Part shown: in pieces, positions 1 to 61,487 of the stretch
Position numbering within the stretch: position 1 is the first letter of the stretch
How the letters are laid out: every line of letters begins with the position of its first letter
NCBI RefSeq assembly: GCF_000189635.1
Contig: NW_002476463.1
Location: forward strand, 868,001 to 932,000
Direction of reading: 5' to 3'
From: Tetrahymena thermophila SB210
Taxonomy: Eukaryota > Ciliophora > Oligohymenophorea > Hymenostomatida > Tetrahymenidae
DNA: 64,000 nt
Notes under the pieces: model-generated
Seen by the model: only the letters and a program-made list of their open reading frames with translations
What the model was told of the DNA's origin: nothing
The model's database searches: none
Made by a program: the position numbers and the translations under genes

Positions 1-609
1 ATTGTGTCTCATAAAACGTGTGATGAAAACGATTTGAAAAAATAGCTTAAAAAGTAAAAATTGAAATATAATTTGATTTTATTATTTATTTTTTGAAGAT
101 GAATTAGTTTATCAAAGCTTAAAATGAAATAATACTATTTCCTTAAAAAGTTAATAAAATAAGAATTTGCTAAGTTAAATCAATATTTAACATATTATTG
201 TTATCAATAAATAAATTTTTAACTTTGTTGAACTATACAAATATATTTTTAGGTATAATTAATTTAAGTAAATTAGTTGTTAGCATATAAAGAAAATAAT
301 TAATTTATATTTTTATTTAATAAGTTGAAGTTATTATACATTATTTATTATTCATTCATTCATTCATTCATTCATTCATTCATTTATTTTATTTTATATT
401 GCTTTATTTGAGATAACTTTATAACTATAAAATTCAATTTAATTATTTTTTTTATTTAATTAGATAATTTAAGATATGAAGGAAGTTTTATATTGATTGA
501 TTGATTTAATTATTTATTTATTTACTTTTTCTTATTCTCTATACTGTAAACTGTAACACTCAACTGATTTGATATATTGAATATCAAGTGTTAATTTACT
601 TCTTACAAA
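1..609. other. intergenic, 3' side of the PLC gene
   Basis: AT-rich spacer with no open frame of coding character on either strand. It holds a short ATTC microsatellite (349-384) and ends just downstream of the TGA stop of the minus-strand phospholipase C gene. Confidence 0.7.
349..384. repeat. (ATTC)n microsatellite
   Basis: About nine tandem copies of ATTC in the intergenic region. Simple-sequence repeat with no sign of function. Confidence 0.9.
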
Positions 610-3600
610 TCAAATAGAGGTGATATTATGTAAACTAGGTTAGTTATTTTGAGCGTTTTTACTTTTTTTGCTAAGACCTTATGTTGAAGTGTTTATTTAG
701 TTGTTTTAAGTTTTTAGTGTTTGTTGATTTTGTTGTTGCTACTATTATGTTAGTATTTCTATACTTATATGAGCAAATAGAAAAGAGTTTGGAATTGGGT
801 TTAGTTGTGAATCTAAAAGAGGAATTGTACGGAAACCTTTACGGATACAGCTAACTGGGATTGCGTATTAAGCGAAGCGATCTTAGCATTCAGGGTTATC
901 GTATACTTGAAAAATGACAAAGGCTAATTCTGGGATGTAAACAGTAAAATCAGCAATACAGTTTTCAAACTGTGGGTTATAGCAGCTATTATTTTTTACC
1001 TAATTTGATACAAAAAGATTTTCGTTTGCCTAAATATCTAAGGCTGTTCCTATTAATCTTATGCTGATATAAGGTGAAAATATTTTTTCTTCATCGCCAG
1101 GTATTCTAAGGCTTTAAGCGCTTATGATTTCTACTTTGAGCCAAATTTTAGGCTTTGATGCTTCTTTTTCAAAATATTGGTTTGAAGTTTTTGCAGTCGA
1201 TGAGAGGAGCCAGGGTGGTTTGAGCACATATCCACATGAAGCATTTTACTTGAAATATTGTAAATAAGCAAGAAGATAAAGATCCTATGTATAATAGTTC
1301 ATAGCAGAAAATTAACACCCACTCACCATAGTCTGCAAAAAGTTATAATTTGAATGATCGCTTTTTGCTTATTTTGGGTAGGTCCTTAACAAATACTATC
1401 TTGTATGGTTAACTATTTGCTAGTTCATTTCTTCTTAGGGATTCATAATTAGAGCAACAGTTATTTAAGAGATTTTCTATTCGCTCAATTAGGAAAAGCT
1501 CCAAATAGAAAGCTCTTATTAAATGCTATACTTACATGCAAATAAAGCAGTGCATTATTCTATATTATTAGAAATAGGAACACTATTCTTTTTTTTGATA
1601 TTTTTTTGTGATTTCATATTTACAATTTTGAAATCAGGTGAGTATGTTGAGTTCTGCATCATATCTCCTCTTATAGAAACATTATCTCCTCCATTATTTC
1701 CACCATTGTTTATCGCATTACTTAATATAGCATTAATATCATCAACTCCTTATTTCTTTAAAATTAATAGAAAAAAGCATTTAAATTTTATTAAAAAAAA
1801 CAAACAAAGTAATATTTAAATTTGGATAATAAAAAATGTAAAATATTTTTATGTGACAGATTATTAAAAAAATTTATTGCATTTATGATTTTTTTATAAA
1901 AAAATTAGTTTTGTCATAAATGGTATTTTAGGTATAAGGTAGTTTTATTTTTAAACTAAAGATCTTTATTTGTTTTTAAATAAAATTTAATATTCTTTAT
2001 TTATTTTAGATAAGATTGATATTTAATTTTTATTTTATTTTTGCTTGGAATTTTATAAAATAAAAATAATATTTTAAAAATATTTTGAAGATTTTCTTTT
2101 ACATTTGTTGATTTGTTATTATCAAAGATTAGAATCTAACTAGTGATGTCCCTATTTTAAGAAACAAAATCGCTGCTTTCATCATCATCGTCATTATCTT
2201 GTTCTCCATTTAATAATTTTTTATCTCCATAAAAAGAATTATTCTACAGTAAATCTTTTTAAGATTCATTCTGCTATGTTTAAGCATTATTTAGTATGCT
2301 GCCTATAGGCAAGTTCTCAAACGAAGCTCTTTTCCTAGCCATGTAAAGCAAAGAGTGTCTCTTTTTTTCGTTTACATTTTAGTGTTTAATAAAGACGGGA
2401 GAATCCATTGCAAAATTTTCATCTTTGTTAGCAACTAAGTTTACATTTGGCTAACTTCCATGATACTCATATAGTGGAACATCTGACTTAAAAGGTATTT
2501 CTAAATGAGGGATTTGCTTAAAAGAGGAAGATCTAAATATGATATTAGTAAATTCTTAAATAAAAATTTAGAAAAGAAGATTAAAGAGTATTTTTCTATT
2601 TAGAAGTGATTAAAATTTAATTACAAAAGCCACAAACCTTATTCTGAAATGTGTAAAAAATCAAAAAAAGAAGATTTTCTAGAAAAATTAATATTAAACA
2701 TATTTCAAATATATTACAAATATAATTTCAACTAAAAAATGAATAAATAATAAAGTAAGGAATTTAATTAAAATAAAGAAAATTAAAATTGTAAATAATC
2801 AAAAAAAAATAAATTTAAAAAAACAAGATTATAACTTTTTTATTATTTATTTTTTAAAATAATAAATTTTTTTTTTGTTAAAATAAATAAATAGTTGATT
2901 TTAAATATCAAATTTCAATTAAAAATGATACAAAATTATTGAGACATTACCTTTGTTGATAATTTGTATCGTTTTTTATGATACTTAAAGTTTATATGAA
3001 ATTTTGATAATTATTTGTTATTATTTGCATATTTTAATATTTCTAAATTAATATGAAAAGTGATTTTTATTTTTGATTTGTGGAGTTTCGTTGCTATTTT
3101 ATTTTAGATTCTGTTTAAAAACTGAATTTTTTAACTTAAGAAATAAATTTAAATTAAAAAAATATTTTGAACATGTGCTTTATTGTAAATAATAATTATG
3201 AAAATTATTATTATTTAAAAGTGATAAAATCTAAAAAGATTATAAAATTTCTTCATTTTTTCTTATAAAACAACAAAGAATATTCTTCTATACTTAAAAA
3301 CTATATTTTGATTTAAGTCTGTACTAATAATAATAAAAATAAATTTATTTTTACCTTGCGGTGTGTCTCCTTTGTTTGTTGGATTGCTATGACTTCAAGG
3401 AAGGTGATCTTGCTTCTTAAAATTAAATTTAATCAGTTCTCATTTTCCTTTGCATTGCTTCTTTAGGATTTTCTACAAGACTATACTATGAATTTTACTA
3501 TTGAATGACCATGGATTTAATCTCTCTGTTAGCAGTTATAAGAGCCTTATTTTATAAAATTTAAAACTGATTGATTTAATTAGTTTTTATTGTTGCATAA

Positions 3601-6600
3601 TTATCTTCGTTTAAAAATTCTTTATCTAAATTCAATTCTAAATCTATCAGTTGCTCAATTTCATTTGGCTACTTTTTATTTAGCTATCCTAATAAAGCTA
3701 TAGATGGTTATTTGCTATTATCTCGAGTTATATTAGGGCCATTTTATGGTTTTTTTTGGATGGTCTTTTACTAAACAATAGGTTTCTTTTAGTTACTGTT
3801 ATTTTTTTTGTTGCTGTTATTCTTACTCTTCTAATTACTTTTTTTCCCACTGTAACTGTCATCATATTCATATTCATCATCATCTTCTTCTTCATTCTCT
3901 TCCTCTTCCTCTTATTATTATTTTCTCATTCTTTCTTCTTCCTCTTTTTTTTATCTCTTTTTTCTTTACTCTTCTTCTTTTAACTTCATCTCCCTCTCAT
4001 ACTACTCTCTCTCTTCTCTTTCCTTTACTTTTTTGTATACTTTTTTTTCATACAATGATATTATGTTTGCCAGCTTTCCTTTAGCTCTTATGATGATTTT
4101 CTTTTTAAGTTAATTAGGTGAGGGAAGATAATCTAACGAAATAAAATCCTCAGGAAGCCTATAAAGCATATCCTAGAACACATTTACCAAAAATTAAGCT
4201 ATTAAATTTTATTAATTCACAGAGCATTCATGCTCCAAATTTATAATTATTGGATAAACACTTCTTTCAAATCCATATTGTTTAATCGCCTTGAAAATAT
4301 CTTCAACACTAACTGGAGTTACCTAAAAAACTCCTTATAAGGCTTCAGGAACTCCTGATTCTCCATCCTAAAATTTATTTATAAAATAGCTTTATTTAAT
4401 ACATTCAAAATTGCAATATTTATAAGAAATTAAATAGCTATATTTATTGGATATAAAATTGCTTTTTTTATTGGATAAAAAATAGCTTTATTTATTAAAG
4501 AAAAATAAAAACTTGATTTAAGCACTAAAATTAGAGTTGTGCCCATATATTGAACTTCGATATTAGATTTTTAAAGTATCAATAAATATGTAATTTTGAT
4601 TTTTTCTCATTAATTTTGGGTAAATAATATCGAAATATTAGATTTATCAAGCCTCGATAGATATTCTATTTTCTATAGTATCAGTATCGATATACAAAAA
4701 AATAAATTAATACCGAACATCTCTAATTAAAGTAATAAGTTTGTGATTTAAAATTCAATCCATTATTTATTGTTTTTATGAATAAATTTTTAACTAATTT
4801 TGCTAAATTATTATTTTTAATAAATTAGTTAATATTTACCTAACAATAAATATCAAGGTGCCTAACTCCCTTTTACAATAAATAAATGTATGCTTTTGTT
4901 AAATCCTTTGTTTAAGTGACTAAATCATAAACCAAGTAAGATCTGAAAGAGCTATTAATAAAGTAATCAGAAAGAGGTTTGTCCATATTCTATTTTAATA
5001 AAAATTATTTATTTTTATCAAAAATTTTAATGATAATAATGATGATTTTATAAATTTAAATTAAATAAATTAATTAATTTATATATTTAATTATTGTCTA
5101 CTTGGGGCGTATATTAAAAGAACAATTAGCTAGAAATAAGTTAAAAAGTATTGAAAACTTGATTAAAATTTATTTGAACAAATTGTAAATTAAAATCTTT
5201 TTCGAATAAACCCTATTTAAGATATTAATGCTTTTAAAAAAACATCAAAGATTATTAATATAAAGAAGAATTAATTTGATTTTAAATGAAATATTTAGAT
5301 ACCGATATGACTTATTTTGCAGGATCAAAAATAGAATTATCCCCTGTGAATATTAGCTGACAAAATGACAAATAATTAATCATTTTCTTTTCTCTGCCTT
5401 TTGTAAGTTTGTTCATTTTCGATAACACTTGCTTTTCGTCATAATTTTCTCCTTATTCGTTCTGGTAGAACTTCAATATATCCTTTTGCAATATCATATT
5501 ATTGTTTGTGCAATATGATTAGTAAATAGGTTATATTTCTGGCTTTTCAAGTAAAGTTATTGTTAATTCTATGAATTCGTTATAAGTTAATGATTTTTCA
5601 TTGTTTTTGTAGTACTTTTTAATTTTGTCTTCTAGCTCTTCATTATTAATTTGTATTAAAAGCTTTCTTAATAGCTTTTTTACCTCTTTATCAGTAATCT
5701 TCTTTTTTTTATCGATTTCAGCTCCAAGAAGCAGCTAAGCAATAAATTGCTCTTTTGTCTAATAACTTTTAAAAAACAAAATTAATTTTACATTTTCAAT
5801 CATTTTCAATGCTAAATAAATAAATATTTATATATTTTTTGGTTGCTTTTTGATTGTAAGTTATTAACATATTTCAAATTCAAAGTAACTATTTAATTGG
5901 CTTTCTTACTTTCAATATTTTTTTTAGAAAACAAATTTATAATAATGAACTTATAATTTTCATGATTAAATTTCTATTTTTTTTCATAACTTAAATAAAA
6001 TTCATTCATAAGTTTATTATATTTTGCTTGAATGCTTAAGGGAATTTACAACCATAAAACGCTGGTTAGATTCATACTAATTTAAAAAAACTATAAAATA
6101 TAAAATTGCTACTTCTAAATGTCATAGTCTGGACCATACTCTTTTACAAATAGAAGTCCTTTCCACCACTTATCTCGTGTCTTTTTATCATTAAATTCTA
6201 AAATTAACTCAAATCCTCCATCCATTGTCAAGCAAAGCGAGACTGATGAATCATAGTTATTAATTTCTGTTAAAGAAGGTTTGGATTGTATGTTTTTAAT
6301 TTCGCTTAATTTAATCCTTGATTCACTAAATTTTTTGTGGGCAGATAGCCATTATAAGATGTTACAATCTGTTTCAAGCAAATAGAAAAAGCATTCATGT
6401 TTTTTCTTTCCACTTTTTGTGTATCTATTAATTACATCTCCATAAACCAAAGCATTAACTGCTTCATTAACAATAATACTATCTAAATTTCCTTTGCCTG
6501 TAGTAGCCCTACCATCTTTACCAATTAAACTTTATCTAAAACTTTGCTATTTCCTGGCTGCTTGGTTTAAGGATGGCCTTTAATTATTTGAAGCTTATTC

Positions 6601-6636
6601 TGCTTATTTCTGCTAAACCTTTTAATTGTCTTCCAT
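610..6636 (-). CDS. PI-phospholipase C, delta type, catalytically degenerate
   Basis: Minus-strand gene in six exons: 6636-6078, 5811-5303, 4989-4840, 4367-3355, 2532-2103 and 1755-610. These sum to 3,807 nt, an exact 1,268 codons plus TGA, which supports the model. Domains in order: PH (about residues 60-172), degenerate EF-hands (187-355), X (357-505), a long acidic Gln/Lys/Glu-rich linker (about 505-955), Y (957-1070) and C2 (1095-1220). X begins PLSDYFINSS and contains NLEHEC and LPSPNQLKKK; Y contains YPKQAKSDHSNY and CGYVLKP; C2 has PELAFVIFQVYD. The family hydrolyses PIP2 to IP3 and diacylglycerol at membranes. Here the first catalytic His (SSHNTYL) is Phe 371 (SSFRSYL), the second (HGxT) is Gln 417, and a calcium ligand (ELD) is HLD. 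Inference: a non-catalytic phosphoinositide-binding or regulatory paralogue. Intron edges are by eye. Confidence 0.93.
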
Positions 6637-8470
6637 ATAAATTATTCCTTTTTTGCTATAATCTTAACAATGATTAATAATAAGTTACTGTGCAAAAAAT
6701 TGATTCTTAATTAAATTTATGATGGAATTTTTGTTGGTTTAAAGAAAAAAGCAAATATTAAATAAAAATAAATAAATAAAGAAAAAGACCAATTTCATTT
6801 GGAAAAACTTCGTCTTATCCATAACAAATTATAAAAGATAACTCAACTCATTCATTTCATGTTTATATTTTTTTGAATTCATATTTAACTAAAAATTCAA
6901 GAAATTTGTTCTTTTATTTAAAAGAAATAAATTAACAAATAACTAAACTCTAAGTTACTAACATTCCTTATTAAATTTACATGTAGAAATATAGATTAAA
7001 ACAAATAAAATTAAGAGTTATTTCTTCATAAATTAACAGATTAGCTTAATTTATTTTCTTGACTTGAAGCAAATTTATATTATCACGAATATTTTTGAAA
7101 AAATTTAATTAATAAAAATTATAAATTGCTCAAGTAATTTCATTTAACGATTATAATTTATCTAAATGTTGTAATTTTCTTAGCAAAAAAATAGTAAAAT
7201 TAAACATAAATTAACAATTTTTTTTAATAAGATTGAAAGATACAAAATAATAAATTAAGATAATTATTAGATGAATTGATCCATATTAAAAAATTTTTTA
7301 ATTTTATTAATTAAAGAAATTACAATATTTTGATGTTTTTAATAAAAGCCAGCCATATAATTTTCTCTTATTTCTACTTTTAAATTTAATTATGGATATT
7401 TTTGTTTGAATCATAAATCTTTATTGATTAAAATAAGAATTAAAGTTCTTATTTGATTTTCAATAAAATATTTTTTAATAAATTTATTATGAATTAATGA
7501 ATATATCTTATTTAAATATTGCAAAATAAAGAGAAAATAAACTTTTAACATATAGCAATAAACATTTTTCAATATTTAAGTTGAAGGATATTTTTTGAGA
7601 AATGATAAAAATAGTATTTTTATAAAATCAACGAAGTAATTTTATTTATAAGTTTGTTAAAAATTTTAAAAATAATAAAAACTTTTAATTTATATTTTAT
7701 AATAAAATAATAATTTAATAAAAGTATTTTTTTATGAATATTTGTAGAAAATCTAAGTGAGAAGATTTGTAGTAAATATGAAGGGTTAGAAAGTTAGAAA
7801 TAATCATTTTTAAAAATAATTGTATTATTTTACTATTTATTTATAAATAATCTTAAAATTTGTAAAATTTCTTAAATAAAAAATTAATTTAAAGAAGCCA
7901 GAAAAATATTTTTATTAATGAAAGTAAAATCTTAAAGGAAAAAAGGTTATTAATTAATTAATTTAAACTATTATATAAATTATATTTAAAATAGATGATT
8001 TAATTATATTTAATATAAAAAGCAAATTTTGAATATGAATTAATTACTCAGCTTTGATTAAAATTTAAAATTATATAGAATTGATTTAATTATTTATTTA
8101 TTTATTTAGCTATTTTGCTTTGGGAATATTCTGTCTTTTAGATTAAAAAAATGTGAAAATTCTTAACAATTTTCGAATAATTGTAGAGCATATAAACTTA
8201 ATTTGCTACAAAAAAAACTCTAGAAGAGAAGAAATATTTCTTCAAAAATTCTATGATGATAAAAATAAACAAAAGTTAATTATTAATTAATTAGAAAGTG
8301 ATCAAATAAAGTTTTTTCTTTCTAAAAATATATTCGCACTTATTTTATTTGTAAAACATTGTTAATTAATTAAAAAGAAAAAAAGAGAAAGATTTTTAAT
8401 TTCTTTGCAAATAATAGATTCAATCAATAATAAAGATACTAACTTACTTACTTACATTTGCCATTTTAAA
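6637..8470. other. divergent intergenic region
   Basis: About 1.8 kb of AT-rich sequence between the diverging PLC and Nfs1 genes. No open frame, RNA gene or repeat was recognised. Both promoters must lie here, but no element can be named. Confidence 0.7.
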
Positions 8471-10661
8471 ATGATCAAAAAAATTATACAAACAAGAGGA
8501 CTATACAATTTGTTGAAAGCTCCATTTTCTTAAGAACCTTGTAATTAATCTCTAATATCTATTTAATTAAAATCAATTTATCAAATAGCATAAAAAACAG
8601 CTTTTAAGATTTTATTTTTTAGGAATTTGATCATAAAATAGCATCAAAATATAAATAGACATTTATTTGTTTAATAGTTTATAAAATGAGACTGATTAAG
8701 ATTTTAAATTTCATCATAAATAAAAGTTTTAAATAAATTATTTAATATTTTAATTTTGATTGATATTAATAGTGCTAAGTTCAGGTAATTACAACACAGC
8801 AGATAAGCGCTCAATTTATTTAGATTTTCAAGCAACAACTCCATTGGATTTCAGAGTTCTTGATAAAATGATGCCTTATCAAACAAATATGTATGGAAAC
8901 CCTCATTCTAGATCTCATGAATATGGGTGGGCCACAGAAAAAGCTACTGAAGATGCAAGAGCTTAAGTAGCTGATCTTATTGGCGCAGATCCAAAGGAAA
9001 TTACTTTTACTTCAGGTGCAACTGAATCAAATAACTAAGCATTAAAGGGATTAGCCGCTTTCTATGGAAAGAAGAAGAAACATATTATTACTACTTAAAT
9101 TGAGCATAAATGTATTTTAGATACCTGTAGAAATTTAGAAGAATAAGGATATGAAATTACTTATCTTCCCGTTTAAAAAAATGGTTTAGTTGATTTAGAA
9201 GTTTTTAAAAACGCTATTCGTCCAGATACTCTTGTAGCTTCTATTATATTAGTTCACAACGAAATAGGTGTAATTTAAGATATCAAAACAATAGGAAAAA
9301 TATGTAGAGACAATAAAGTTTTCTTCCATACAGATGCTGCATAAGCACTTGGAAAAATCCCTATTAATGTAGATGAAATGAATATTGATTTAATGTCTAT
9401 GTCTAGTCATAAAGTATAGAATTATTTTTAATATTTATGCAATAGTAGATAGATAAAATAAAATATAATATAAATAAATTCTTATTTAGAATTCATCTAA
9501 AATTTTTATCAAAAATAAAGGTTTATGGACCTAAGGGTATCGGAGGTTTATATGTTAGAAGAAAACCCAAAGTTAGAATTTTACGTAATGATTGATATTT
9601 ATTTATTTATAAAGGAGATGAAAAAATGAATGCAATAAAAAAATATTTTGTAATTATTTAGCAATTATTAATGGTGGTGGATAAGAAAGAGGTTTAAGAA
9701 GTGGAACTCTTGCTCCTCATGTAATTAATTCTTTAAATTTAAAAAGACTTTAGAATTGAATTCAATTTTTTGTTTTATCAATAAAAAAAGTTGTGTGTTG
9801 GTTTTGGTGAGGCTTGTGAAATTGCCAAGAGAGAAATGGATAACGATAAAAAACATATTTAAAGGCTTTCAGAAAAATTCTTGAAAGAAGTCTACCAACG
9901 TATTCCAAATATATATATAAATGGTGATAAGGTAAATAAATAATTTTAGAAAAATATGAATTCCATTTGCATAAATAATGAATAAAACTTAAAAGTAAAA
10001 GCATTAGAAAAAAATTAAAGTAGCTATTTATTTTATGTCTTAAATTCAGCTCAGTTAAAGCAATTTCTAATTACATAAATTTTATGATTTTTTATTATAA
10101 ATTTGCCTGATTTTCTGATTAAGAAATTTCTTGAAAAATTAAGATTTTTACCAGAAAATAAGAAAAAGAAGCAAATCTGATAAAAAATGTTGATTTACTG
10201 CTAATTTTTCTAAATGAATTTCTAAATACTAAGAATTAATTTAATTAATGTATAAATTAAAGGATCAAAGATATGTCGGTAACATAAATATTTCCTTTGA
10301 ATTCGTTGAAGGAGAAAGTTTAATGATGGGTATCAAGTAATGTGCTGTGTCAAGTGGCTCTGCATGTACTTCTGCTTCTCTTGAACCATCTTATGTCTTA
10401 AGAGCTCTCGGTGTCAACGAAGAATTAGCTCACACTTCATTACGTATTGGATTTGGGTAAAATTAACTTATTTTAACTAAAAACTTTTAATACTTAATAT
10501 TATTTCCCTTAAAAAGTCGCTTTACTACTGATGAGGAAGTCGATTATTTAATTAACCTCTTGTCTGAAAAAGTTTCTAAATTAAGAGAAATGTCTCCTCT
10601 TTGGGAAATGATTTAGGAAGGTATTGACATTAAAGAAATTTAATGGTCCCAACCTCATTGA
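8471..10661 (+). CDS. NFS1: mitochondrial cysteine desulfurase Nfs1/IscS
   Basis: Seven exons: 8471-8540, 8773-9413, 9521-9584, 9662-9720, 9791-9931, 10263-10456 and 10517-10661, together 438 codons including TGA (437 residues). The PLP enzyme takes sulfur from cysteine as a persulfide for Fe-S cluster assembly. Visible landmarks: a basic, hydroxylated N-terminus ([15 protein letters not shown]) fitting a mitochondrial presequence; [39 protein letters not shown]; the PLP lysine in SSHK at the end of exon 2; [12 protein letters not shown]; the loop with the catalytic cysteine, [14 protein letters not shown]; and the terminal SPLWEMIQEGID signature. All key residues are present and the length is usual for the family. 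Splice phases agree at every junction. It is the best-conserved gene in the window. Confidence 0.97.
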
Positions 10662-26546: not shown

Positions 26547-27182
26547 GTTACATCTTAGATTTAATATATATTCTTGTGAAAGAAAAACATTTTTTTTTTT
26601 CAAGTTCACTAAATTACAATTTTCTATCTTGATTTATTTTCTTCTTTTTCTATTAATCTTATTTAAGATTTAATTTTATAATGTTAGATATTAAATTCCG
26701 ATTACCAAATTAAACAATAAATAAAAATTTCAGAACATAATCTCCATTTATTTTGGTAATAAATAATGTGAATTCTATTAATAATAAAACCTAATGTAAT
26801 AAAATAGTGCATGTTATGATAGGAATAAAACAATTCTAAACTATATTAATAAATGAATTAATGCTAATAAATAGATTGAAAAAGAAAAGATGTTTTTTTT
26901 ATTGAAAATGGAAAATTTCTTGCAAAATTATAAGTTAAAATTATAGACACTTTAAAAGACTTTTGAAAGAATAATTATAAATAATATCAGGAATAGATTG
27001 TTTAGTTAGAATCCACTTTAAAAGAAAGATTATGTGTTTATGTGTGTATAAAATTTGATTAAAAGTAAATATAAAAGCATATAATAATTATATATATCAA
27101 AACAAACACAATTTATAGTGGTTTATTTTAAGCGCAAAAAAATATAATAAATACAAAATCTAATTTATATTAAATAGCATAA
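26547..27182. other. intergenic, nothing recognised
   Basis: AT-rich sequence before the F-box/VLRF1 gene. No open frame of coding character. Confidence 0.6.
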
Positions 27183-28334
27183 ATGAATTTCTAAGCAATT
27201 AATTTAAATTTTTTATTTGAGAGTGATGCTAACTGTGCTAATTTAATTTTGAGCTATCTTAATAAGAGAGAGCTAGCTAGGTTCGGATAATGCTGCAAAT
27301 ATATTCACACATAAGTTATCGAATTTTAAAAAGATTAGTATAATGAAGAATACAATGATTGGAGATAAAACAAAATTAATAGGCTGAAAATAAACAATGG
27401 TACAAAGAAGGGCAATTAAAACATTAAATTTATTGAAACAGATACTAATTATATAATAAAAATGAGAATTTTTGATATTCCTCTTAAATATTTAGTTTAA
27501 AAGAATTGGAATTTTATCAATGAAAGCGATGAATAATATGTTAAAAAAATCAAATCTGATAAATTTATTAAAGAATACAACAACCTATTTTTTAAGAACA
27601 AATAATACAACGACATTCTATTTATTAACAGATCTATCATTGATCCAAGTCTCAATTATCAAGAAAGCGACTTCGATGAAGATGAATTTGAATAAACTAA
27701 ATATTAAGAACTTTATCAAGGCTAAGAATTTTCTTCTGATAATTATGATTTTTCTAATATGCAAAGTCTTCTAAGTAGATAAAAATAGATTATTTAAAAA
27801 ATGAATAAAAAAGAATAAGTTAAATAGTAATAACAAATTGAAGAGTCAAGCTACTTAAACTAATTATAAACAATCAAAAAAATTACTATCATTCTTTGTC
27901 ACGGAGGTTACTTCTCAATTGGAATATTTAATGATAAAGGCAATTGTATTTTCCACAAAAGTGATCATAAATACGTTGTCCGTAAAAAAGCTGGTCAACG
28001 TTAGCTCAATTGCGATACCTAAACAGGAAAGAAAGTAAAATCTATTGGTAGTTAAATCAGAAGAGACCAAGAAAAGAAACATTAAGAAAAAGTACACAAT
28101 ATTTTGAATGAGCATATTGATGAAATAGATAAAACAGATGTAGTCTTTTTACAAGCTCCAGGTCTCAATAAGCAAATTCTAATCAGAGATAATGAACCAC
28201 TCATGAAAGTATAACATAAGATTAGATCTCTTTGCCTTACAGCTAAAAAGGCTAACTACACAGAAGTAGAAAGAATATACAAAGCTATAACAAAAATATA
28301 TTTAGTATTAAATAAAGAACCAAAAAAATAATGA
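27183..28334 (+). CDS. F-box-like plus Vms1/ANKZF1 (VLRF1) domain protein
   Basis: Single exon, 383 residues, ending at TGA. Residues about 15-50 form an F-box-like helix set (NLILSYLNKRELARFGQCC). A poorly conserved acidic, Gln-rich middle follows. From about residue 235 there is a Vms1-like release-factor domain: ILCHGGYFSIGIF, then HKYVVRKKAGQRQ, GSQIRRDQE, VVFLQAPG and the final LTAKK helix region. In Vms1/ANKZF1 this domain cleaves peptidyl-tRNA on stalled 60S ribosomes in the quality-control pathway, using a Gln in a GxxQ motif; here GQRQ supplies it. The usual C2H2 zinc finger, ankyrin repeats and p97-binding VIM motif are not visible, and the protein is about half the length of human ANKZF1. 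An F-box would suggest an SCF ubiquitin ligase link, which is inference. The plus and minus frames at 27520-27774 and 27915-28115 are shadows. Confidence 0.85.
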
Positions 28335-59287: not shown

Positions 59288-59336
59288 TCAGTCATCTATA
59301 CTTTCGCTGAAATCAATAAACGGTTGTTTACATGAG
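59012..59336. repeat. tandem duplication covering a gene's 3' end
   Basis: Two copies of about 162 bp (59012-59175 and about 59176-59336) share ATAAATTTATAAATACAAAA at the start and a near-identical end. The second copy holds the last 15 codons and stop of the FHA-RING gene; the first carries a mutated version of the same codons (IDFSDSIND against IDFSESIDD) that is now untranslated downstream sequence. Confidence 0.85.
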
Positions 59337-60616
59337 GGACATATGTTATTGCTCTTTGTTAATGTACATTATAAGCAGAGGTCTTTGTGATTGCAAGGCT
59401 TTAGATAATATAATTTTGATTCATTCTAAGAGCAAAAAAGACACAAATTAGACACTTAATTAGTTATTTAATTAGAAATTTTAGAAAAAGTAGTTTCTAC
59501 TTAATTGTTATTGCCAATTGATACTTTGTACTTATTCAATAATCCAAATTTTATTATGCATTCGTTATTTAGTTTAAAAGGAGTATTCTACTATATCTTA
59601 ATACTAACTTTATCGTAGATTTCTGGCTAATTTAATATCAGTATTTATTTGATACAATTCATTTTAATACTGCAATGTAAGTTTTCAATAAGTTCATCTT
59701 CTTTGAGCTACTTTTAGAAATTTTTGCCTATTTAGTATGCATCTCCTTCCTGTTTAATATCGAATTCTAGAAGAAAAGAATGGATTGATTCATCTACAAG
59801 GTTAGAAAAGAATAAGCAAACTCTATTAGTCTCTTTATCCAGAGAGAAAATACTTTTTACCTCGCAAATAAATGTACCGATAAGCAACTACATATCTGCC
59901 TTTAAAACTATTTCATCCTATACAATATAAGTTCCATTTATAGAATTATTATCAATTAAAAACCATTAGCGATATTCTTCTTCATATCTTAAAGTAGCAT
60001 GCTTTTTGCTTATTGATTTTAAAGGATCACTTATAACATAATCGCATTCTGTGCTAGCTCCTATCAAAACATCCTTGTTTTCTCTTACTAAAAAGTATCT
60101 TTCTATATCTTCATGAGGTCTCTTTTTTGGATTTAAAATTCTTTTTATTTCTTTAAATTAAATTCTGTATTCATTTATAGCTTCAAAGTTTCTTTTAATT
60201 ATTGGCCTCTAAACAGTTGGATGAAAAATCTCTGGTTTCAGTATAGACAGATTTAAATCGTCTTTATCAGTTTAATTTTCAAATTAATCAAATTAATTTT
60301 CTTCTTATTTGGTCTCCTATATTTCCTCTTTATCAGTAGAAGACTAATCCTCACATTTTGGTTGTAAACTAAATTCGTAAGTCAATGTAGAAGCTTTGAC
60401 TGATATTGAATTTTGAAATTCTATTTAGTTTTTAAACAAATCAGGATCACATAACGAATCTAACTTTTCAAAGTATGGTGTATCAACTAATTCAGATTAT
60501 TTTTCGTCCTTCTAACTACCAACTGAATTTATTTTCATATCGACACTTTTACTCATACTAACTGGCAAATCTTGCAAAAAGTCTGCCCTGAATTCTATTT
60601 TTTTTTTATTATTCAT
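59288..60616 (-). CDS. FHA-RING protein, paralogue A
   Basis: Single-exon minus-strand gene, 442 residues, ATG at 60616 and TGA at 59288-59290. After an acidic, low-complexity N-terminus, residues about 195-260 form an FHA domain: LVRENKDVLIGAS, ISDPLKSISKKHATL, DNNSINGTYI. FHA domains bind phosphothreonine. The Ser/His and NGT elements are kept, but the conserved Arg of the GR motif is Ala (GAS). A second weak FHA-like segment follows (DAYQIGKNFQ ... IIKFGLLNKY). The C-terminus is a C3HC4-like RING (CLFCSQ, CNHKDLCLQC, CPSC) as in Mdm2/IAP-type E3 ligases. It is paralogous to the gene at 61488-62762 along its length. Inference: a ubiquitin ligase whose targets are chosen by the FHA region; phosphopeptide binding by the first FHA is doubtful. 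Confidence 0.87.
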
Positions 60617-61487
60617 ATAAATAATGAGATCTTATAAAATTAATCAAATTAATTATGATCAAAATTTTTTATAAATGCTTCTAAGCACAAAAAAAATTGT
60701 AAAAAGGTTAATATCTCATGGATAGAACTTGGCAAGCATTAATTTAGATGATAAATTCTGTATTTAATAATTTAAGTAAATTTAAAAATATTATTTTTTG
60801 CACAATTTTAATTCAACATGAAATTCAAATTTCCAGTTAAATTGCAATCACACATAATCGTTTTAAATTTTATTTTTTAAAATTATAATTTATCTCCCCT
60901 TTAAATAAAGATAAAAAATTAGCTTTGAGTTTTATTGTTTTAGTTAAAATTTTCAGGGGTATTAAAAATTTACTCAAAAAGATTATATTTATATATACTT
61001 TCAAAAGATCTTTAATATTTAATAATATATTTTTTTTATTTTTTCAACAAAATAAAAAATTGAAATAAATTTGTTTTAGAATGATTTTAAAAAATTAGCT
61101 AAAACTATTTTTTATTTTTTGTAATAATAAAAAACAAAATAAATAGAAGATTGATTGTTTTTTTATACTTTATTTAAGAAAAGATATCTATCTAAATATA
61201 GGAATAAACTACAATTTAAATTATATTTATTTTATTAAGTTAACGACAAATAAATTATTTTTCTTTCTTTTTATATGGTTTTCAAAATTTAAATAGATAA
61301 ATTTCATATATTATTATTATTAAAACTTAGAATGAATGAATGATTCATCTCAAGTTTTAATTATTTTTTCTTTTATTCGATAAATTAAGTGAATAGATAT
61401 ATCTATTTCTTTTATATCTATTTTTTACTTGGTAGGAATCTAAGATTCTATTAAACTAAATAAGATTTTACTTTTGATTTCGTTTTT
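60617..61487. other. intergenic between FHA-RING paralogues
   Basis: About 870 bp of AT-rich sequence between two genes on the same strand. No open frame, RNA or repeat recognised. Confidence 0.7.

Follow-up and report, generated by a model that had tools for sequence, protein, structure and literature searches.

Phospholipase C (PLC) pseudo-enzymes are best known from animals, where they are represented by PRIP, and presumed cases occur in plants. In its passages on PRIP, one account describes an X-Y domain that associates with PI(4,5)P2, a protein that protects this lipid from metabolism, and, in PRIP1, a PH domain that binds IP3/PIP2 and needs Arg134 (matching Arg40) for binding (PMC6726632). 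Arabidopsis PLC8 and PLC9 carry H311L and H356P and are presumed inactive, and overexpression phenotypes are reported for them; their authors point out that inactivity has yet to be proved by experiment, and consider that the two proteins might act as silent partners or use another catalytic domain (PMC11209554). In Tetrahymena, PLC3 is mentioned as an inactive, PRIP-like PLC whose PH domain was used in that work (PMC3823935, in a passage citing Leondaritis et al. 2011, Eukaryot Cell 10:412). A dead PLC in this genus is already known in print as TtPLC3; to this we add a corrected active-site map, the phosphate-contact positions that are kept, and a second dead paralogue, C212.

The gene described here lies in a 64,000-nucleotide stretch of the Tetrahymena thermophila genome (the window) on contig C91, and we refer to it as C91 PLC. 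We propose, at a probability of roughly 60%, that it encodes a catalytically dead delta-type phosphoinositide PLC that would act as a non-catalytic scaffold for phosphoinositides or inositol phosphates, PRIP-like in function. Translated with ciliate table 6, in which TAA and TAG specify Gln and TGA is the stop, the gene occupies 6636..610 on the minus strand, and our splice model resolves it into six exons, whose product is a delta-type PLC about 1,241 aa long:

Exon 1, 6113..6636, minus strand: start codon, low-complexity N-terminus and PH-like domain at about aa 50-170 (splice model and PH_12)
Exon 2, 5303..5765, minus strand: EF-hand region (splice model)
Exon 3, 4840..4989, minus strand: first half of the X domain, SSFRSYL ... 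GVRHLDIYCQ
Intron 3, 4368..4839, minus strand: 472 bases, interrupting the X domain at the residue where the paralogues are interrupted too
Exon 4, 3355..4367, minus strand: remaining half of the X domain (EALQG ... IIIRAKGK), then the first part of the long X-Y linker, which includes a KE-rich charged run
Exon 5, 2103..2532, minus strand: X-Y linker, the whole of which spans about 450 aa
Exon 6, 610..1755, minus strand: end of the linker, Y domain (65.1 bits), C2 domain (25.1 bits) and TGA stop

Introns 2, 3 and 5 are better fixed than introns 1 (6112-5766) and 4. For these two, several placements were open, the choice was guided by splice signals and by the spacing seen in the paralogues, and the borders are uncertain; of all five, intron 4 (3354-2533, 822 bases) is placed with the least certainty. 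The length of 1,268 residues given in the preliminary description is accordingly replaced by about 1,241 aa, itself dependent on how introns 1 and 4 are placed. Both borders of exon 3 match the aligned places in the best splice models of three paralogues (C221, C332 and C212), and GC content separates exons (0.27-0.31) from introns (0.12-0.18). The intact frame described earlier stands: the four largest exons contain zero internal stops where shuffles average 2.9 to 7.1, and mononucleotide shuffles of exons 1 to 6 (500 each) were stop-free in 3, 6.8, 36, 0, 4.6 and 0 percent of cases, the single stop in the last exon being its own terminator. Within intron 3 (4368-4839), short recurring AT-rich units such as AATAAAGCTATTTT were seen by eye. 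Elsewhere in the window, a class V aminotransferase (8760-9626, plus strand, E 2.3e-60), which we take to be cysteine-desulfurase-like, lies upstream of C91 PLC in divergent orientation. An open frame at 26967-28331 (plus strand) has a strong match to the release-factor-like bVLRF1 domain (E 5.1e-40) and is presumably of the Vms1/ANKZF1 type, and 59291-60643 (minus strand) encodes an FHA domain protein (50.3 bits) with a RING-type match near its C-terminus that scores 26.1 against a cut-off of 27.

Active-site positions were assigned in PLC-delta1 numbering, for which we took the offset to be 132; as a check, eight known PLC-delta1 residues land on the right letters. The codons concerned are as follows:

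4945..4947, minus strand: Phe (TTC, in SSFRSYL) at the catalytic His311 position (alignment and codon)
4942..4944, minus strand: Arg (AGA) at the Asn312 position, a calcium ligand (alignment and codon)
4858..4860, minus strand: His, the first residue of HLD, at the Cys339 position (alignment and codon)
4852..4854, minus strand: Asp (GAT) at the Glu341 position, a calcium ligand (HMMER alignment and codon)
4846..4848, minus strand: Tyr (TAT) at the Asp343 position, a calcium ligand (HMMER alignment and codon)
4335..4337, minus strand: Gln (TAA in the ciliate code, in EALQG) at the catalytic His356 position (alignment and codon)
4233..4235, minus strand: Glu still at the Glu390 position, a calcium ligand (alignment and codon)

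The alignment bears out the earlier claim that both catalytic histidines are lost, with Phe and Gln in place of His311 and His356, and extends it to five of the six active-site residues (H311F, N312R, E341D, D343Y, H356Q), E390 being kept. It corrects the reading of the ELD motif as HLD, which arose from a misalignment. HMMER places C91 PLC G-V-R-H-L-D-I-Y-C-Q-D-G against rat PLC-delta1 G-C-R-C-L-E-L-D-C-W-D-G without a gap, and the intron that follows this stretch falls at the same residue in the best splice models of C91 PLC, C221, C332 and C212; therefore E341 corresponds to Asp and D343 to Tyr, and the His takes the place of C339. The four calcium ligands N312, E341, D343 and E390 accordingly read R, D, Y and E, one of them unchanged and one (E341D) conservatively replaced. 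Each of H311F, N312R and H356Q takes at least two base changes, and a single base-call error cannot explain the lost histidines because each codon lies at least two bases from either His codon. An alternative exon restoring the histidines, named in the preliminary description as what would overturn this result, was sought in a six-frame scan of window positions 1-9000, where no usable frame carries a motif like SSHN or HGxT; the only matches, HGHS at 3513 and SSHR at 1208, both on the minus strand, lie in other frames within exons 4 and 6. That catalytic residues have been lost in an open gene is well supported.

Domain profile searches of the 101 Mb genome (445 contigs) gave 10 exon matches to the X domain over cut-off on six contigs, two each at C221, C332, C112 and C91 PLC and one each at C212 and C269, and four Y-domain matches, at C332, C221, C91 and C212. 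C112, whose two X matches lie about 2 kb apart, and C269 are without a Y match and presumably encode bacterial-type PLCs. The paralogues C221 and C332 retain SSHNTYL and HG and, with these intact motifs, are canonical PLCs. The fourth gene with both barrel halves is located as follows:

C212 PLC, G000:C212:509001-518000: X domain from near 2985, followed by Y and C2 up to near 5640; divergent N-terminus

All three of its domains exceed their Pfam cut-offs (X 98.1, Y 41.5, C2 55.1 bits), and in a MAFFT alignment its active site reads H311K, N312N, E341E, D343E, H356Y and E390V. C91 PLC and C212 both being without the catalytic histidines, two of the four genes that have both X and Y are affected. 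An X-domain tree of eight rows left four of its five inner branches open and did not decide whether C91 and C212 share an origin; C91 PLC sits on a long branch in it. Searches for relatives by tblastn found none in viral contigs (29 pattern matches) or in bacterial and archaeal genome contigs (255 pattern matches), which says little about orthologues because neither collection consists of eukaryote genomes.

Loss appears uneven within the X domain of C91 PLC. At the positions K438, K440, R549 and Y551, which we take to be inositol-phosphate contacts in PLC-delta1, C91 PLC has a basic replacement (K438R), keeps K440, and keeps R549 and Y551 within LLRTYP; S522 cannot be placed because a longer loop allows two alignments. 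Forty-seven X-domain columns are invariant in six active PLCs (C221 and C332 of Tetrahymena, delta1, zeta, gamma1 and gamma2), with gaps ignored in gamma1, a piece truncated at either end, and with 438 and 440 counted outside the catalytic class. C91 PLC keeps 28 of these, namely 1/6 catalytic and 27/41 other columns (Fisher p 0.033, indicative only, since the columns are not independent), so that 5/6 active-site residues are substituted against 14/41 of the others. C212 shows no such contrast (2/6 catalytic and 22/41 others kept, p 0.42).

The preliminary description had credited the gene with all five domains of a delta-type PLC. The claim stands for X (149.4 bits against a Pfam cut-off of 23.1), Y (65.1 against 28.8) and C2 (25.1 against 22, the segment scanned alone), all over curated cut-offs and arranged as the two barrel halves in the order X then Y, with C2 after Y. 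It is less secure for the N-terminus, where the PH and EF-hand matches are in the right order with sub-threshold scores: two EF-hand models reach 22.9 against 30 and 18.3 against 21, and PH_12, run on the exon segment alone, reaches 25.0 bits (E 2.7e-5) against 27. A whole-protein Pfam scan gave neither PH nor C2 at E<=10, and none of the 23 matches of a genome-wide PF00169 (PH) search falls at C91 PLC or the other three PLC genes. Compared with solved structures, the PH segment gave a single match (E 0.92), taken as chance. By eye, the first EF-hand loop is degenerate beside that of C221. The C2 calcium positions are reduced to S653, N677, D706 and P708; this is no mark of a dead gene, because the canonical paralogue C332 has lost all three Asp at the same positions. 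One column of the PH-like segment, which we take to be the Arg40 position of PLC-delta1, holds Arg in C221, Cys in C91 PLC and other residues in C332 and C212. PH-mediated IP3 binding of the PRIP kind thereby appears weakened for C91 PLC, given the Cys in the Arg column, although canonical C332 is also without the Arg.

In the predicted protein, both histidines and three of four calcium ligands are substituted, and the barrel halves, C2 domain and several phosphate-contact positions are kept. Such a protein would be unable to cleave PIP2. Its X-Y barrel may still bind inositol phosphates or the head groups of phosphoinositides, with no need for calcium. At the membrane the protein would serve as a lipid-shielding scaffold or as a competitor of the two canonical PLCs, and its charged linker of about 450 residues might hold partners, much as mammalian PRIP is reported to act. 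The mechanism would be workable because the X-Y domain of PRIP is reported to associate with PI(4,5)P2, and PRIP to protect this lipid from metabolism (PMC6726632). Speaking for this reading are the presence of canonical C221 and C332 in the same genome, the six open exons, the lack of a restoring motif in the region scanned and the apparent preferential loss of catalytic columns. Selection for a non-catalytic role, whether the protein binds phosphoinositides, IP3 or partners, is plausible and agrees with K440, R549, Y551 and K438R. Against it, the PH column holds Cys where PRIP1 needs Arg134 for binding; the pocket may be closed by N312R and other substitutions; and the long C91 branch also suits relaxed constraint.

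The same loss of the PH-column Arg, together with the pocket changes N312R and C339H, would also fit a non-catalytic scaffold that works through protein partners, by way of the charged linker and the PH and C2 modules, around a ligand-free barrel. The linker, at about 450 aa with its KE-rich run, suits such a role; 11 LIR-like patterns in the protein are meaningless alone, and one scripted RVxF-like pattern gave zero matches. We consider a ligand-free barrel unlikely, as the barrel retains K440, R549 and Y551 and is still basic at 438, whereas in C212 both R549 and Y551 are gone and position 438 is Ile.

That C91 PLC is instead a decaying or unexpressed gene, open by chance, would agree with its long branch in the X-domain tree. 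Six in-frame open exons bounded by splice signals, stop-free rates of 0, 0 and 3 percent when the three largest exons are shuffled, and substitutions that are denser in the active site make this very improbable. Slimmer still is the chance that the gene encodes a rewired enzyme, in which His339, Asp341 and Arg312 give other chemistry or calcium-free hydrolysis: a His does stand two residues before the 341 position, and an alternative catalytic site has been proposed for Arabidopsis PLC8 and PLC9, which lost both histidines (PMC11209554), but here both histidines, N312 and D343 are gone and E341 is changed. An artefact of assembly, splicing or genetic code hiding a protein that retains its histidines is scarcely credible, with no supporting point found and with changes of at least two bases at each of three codons, the lack of a usable SSHN- or HGxT-like motif in positions 1-9000 and the intron positions common to the paralogues all against it.

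Returning to the binding scaffold as the preferred reading, such a protein in a ciliate, dead yet still holding some of the phosphate pocket, would show whether dead PLCs came to shield lipids on more than one occasion, and genes are readily deleted in Tetrahymena. More tentatively, and with the balance tilted against it, T. thermophila might run a graded set of pseudo-PLCs that buffers PIP2 or IP3 without calcium and arose apart from animal PRIP, half of the eukaryotic-type PLC genes found in it (C91 and C212) being dead in ways that differ: the phosphate pocket is kept in the first and lost in the second.

Three eukaryotic-type PLC genes, one of them inactive, were reportedly counted in Tetrahymena by Leondaritis and colleagues in 2011. 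C91 PLC is probably TtPLC3, an identity that we infer and for which C212 is the other candidate. The species match fits: in this genome one RIB72B exon agrees at 97 of 97 aligned residues with the RIB72B chain of 8g2z, and a telomerase stretch agrees at all 203 aligned residues with 6d6v, save for 21 extra residues in the query that we take to be an unspliced intron; both entries are from T. thermophila, which makes the genome that species or one very near it. TtPLC3 is described as an inactive, PRIP-like, eukaryotic-type PLC with a PH domain (PMC3823935), and C91 PLC, a eukaryotic-type PLC with a PH-like segment and a predicted loss of activity, resembles it. C91 PLC is favoured over C212 because it has the best PH_12 score among exon segments of the four PLC genes (25.0, followed by C221 at 23.7, with none for C332 and C212); counting against the assignment, longer scans recover PH_12 for C221 (19.3 bits) and not for C91 PLC. 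Among the matches listed in open-licence literature (titles and abstract openings), none described a second dead Tetrahymena PLC.

Compared with known systems, C91 PLC resembles rat PLC-delta1 (1djg, 1djx) over the EF-X (E 4.3e-32) and Y-C2 (E 2.7e-24) regions; the rat enzyme is active, and C91 PLC differs from it at five of six active-site residues. With mammalian PRIP-1 and PRIP-2 (PLC-L1/L2, p130) it shares a PLC-delta1-like build and, as judged from its sequence only, PLC domains combined with a dead active site and a predicted lack of activity. PRIP1 has Arg134 in its PH domain, where the corresponding column of C91 PLC is Cys, if that column is indeed the Arg40 position. Arabidopsis PLC8 and PLC9, in the substitutions given for them, have likewise had both catalytic histidines replaced, with E390K and K440R in addition, whereas C91 PLC keeps E390 and K440 and changes N312, E341 and D343 instead.
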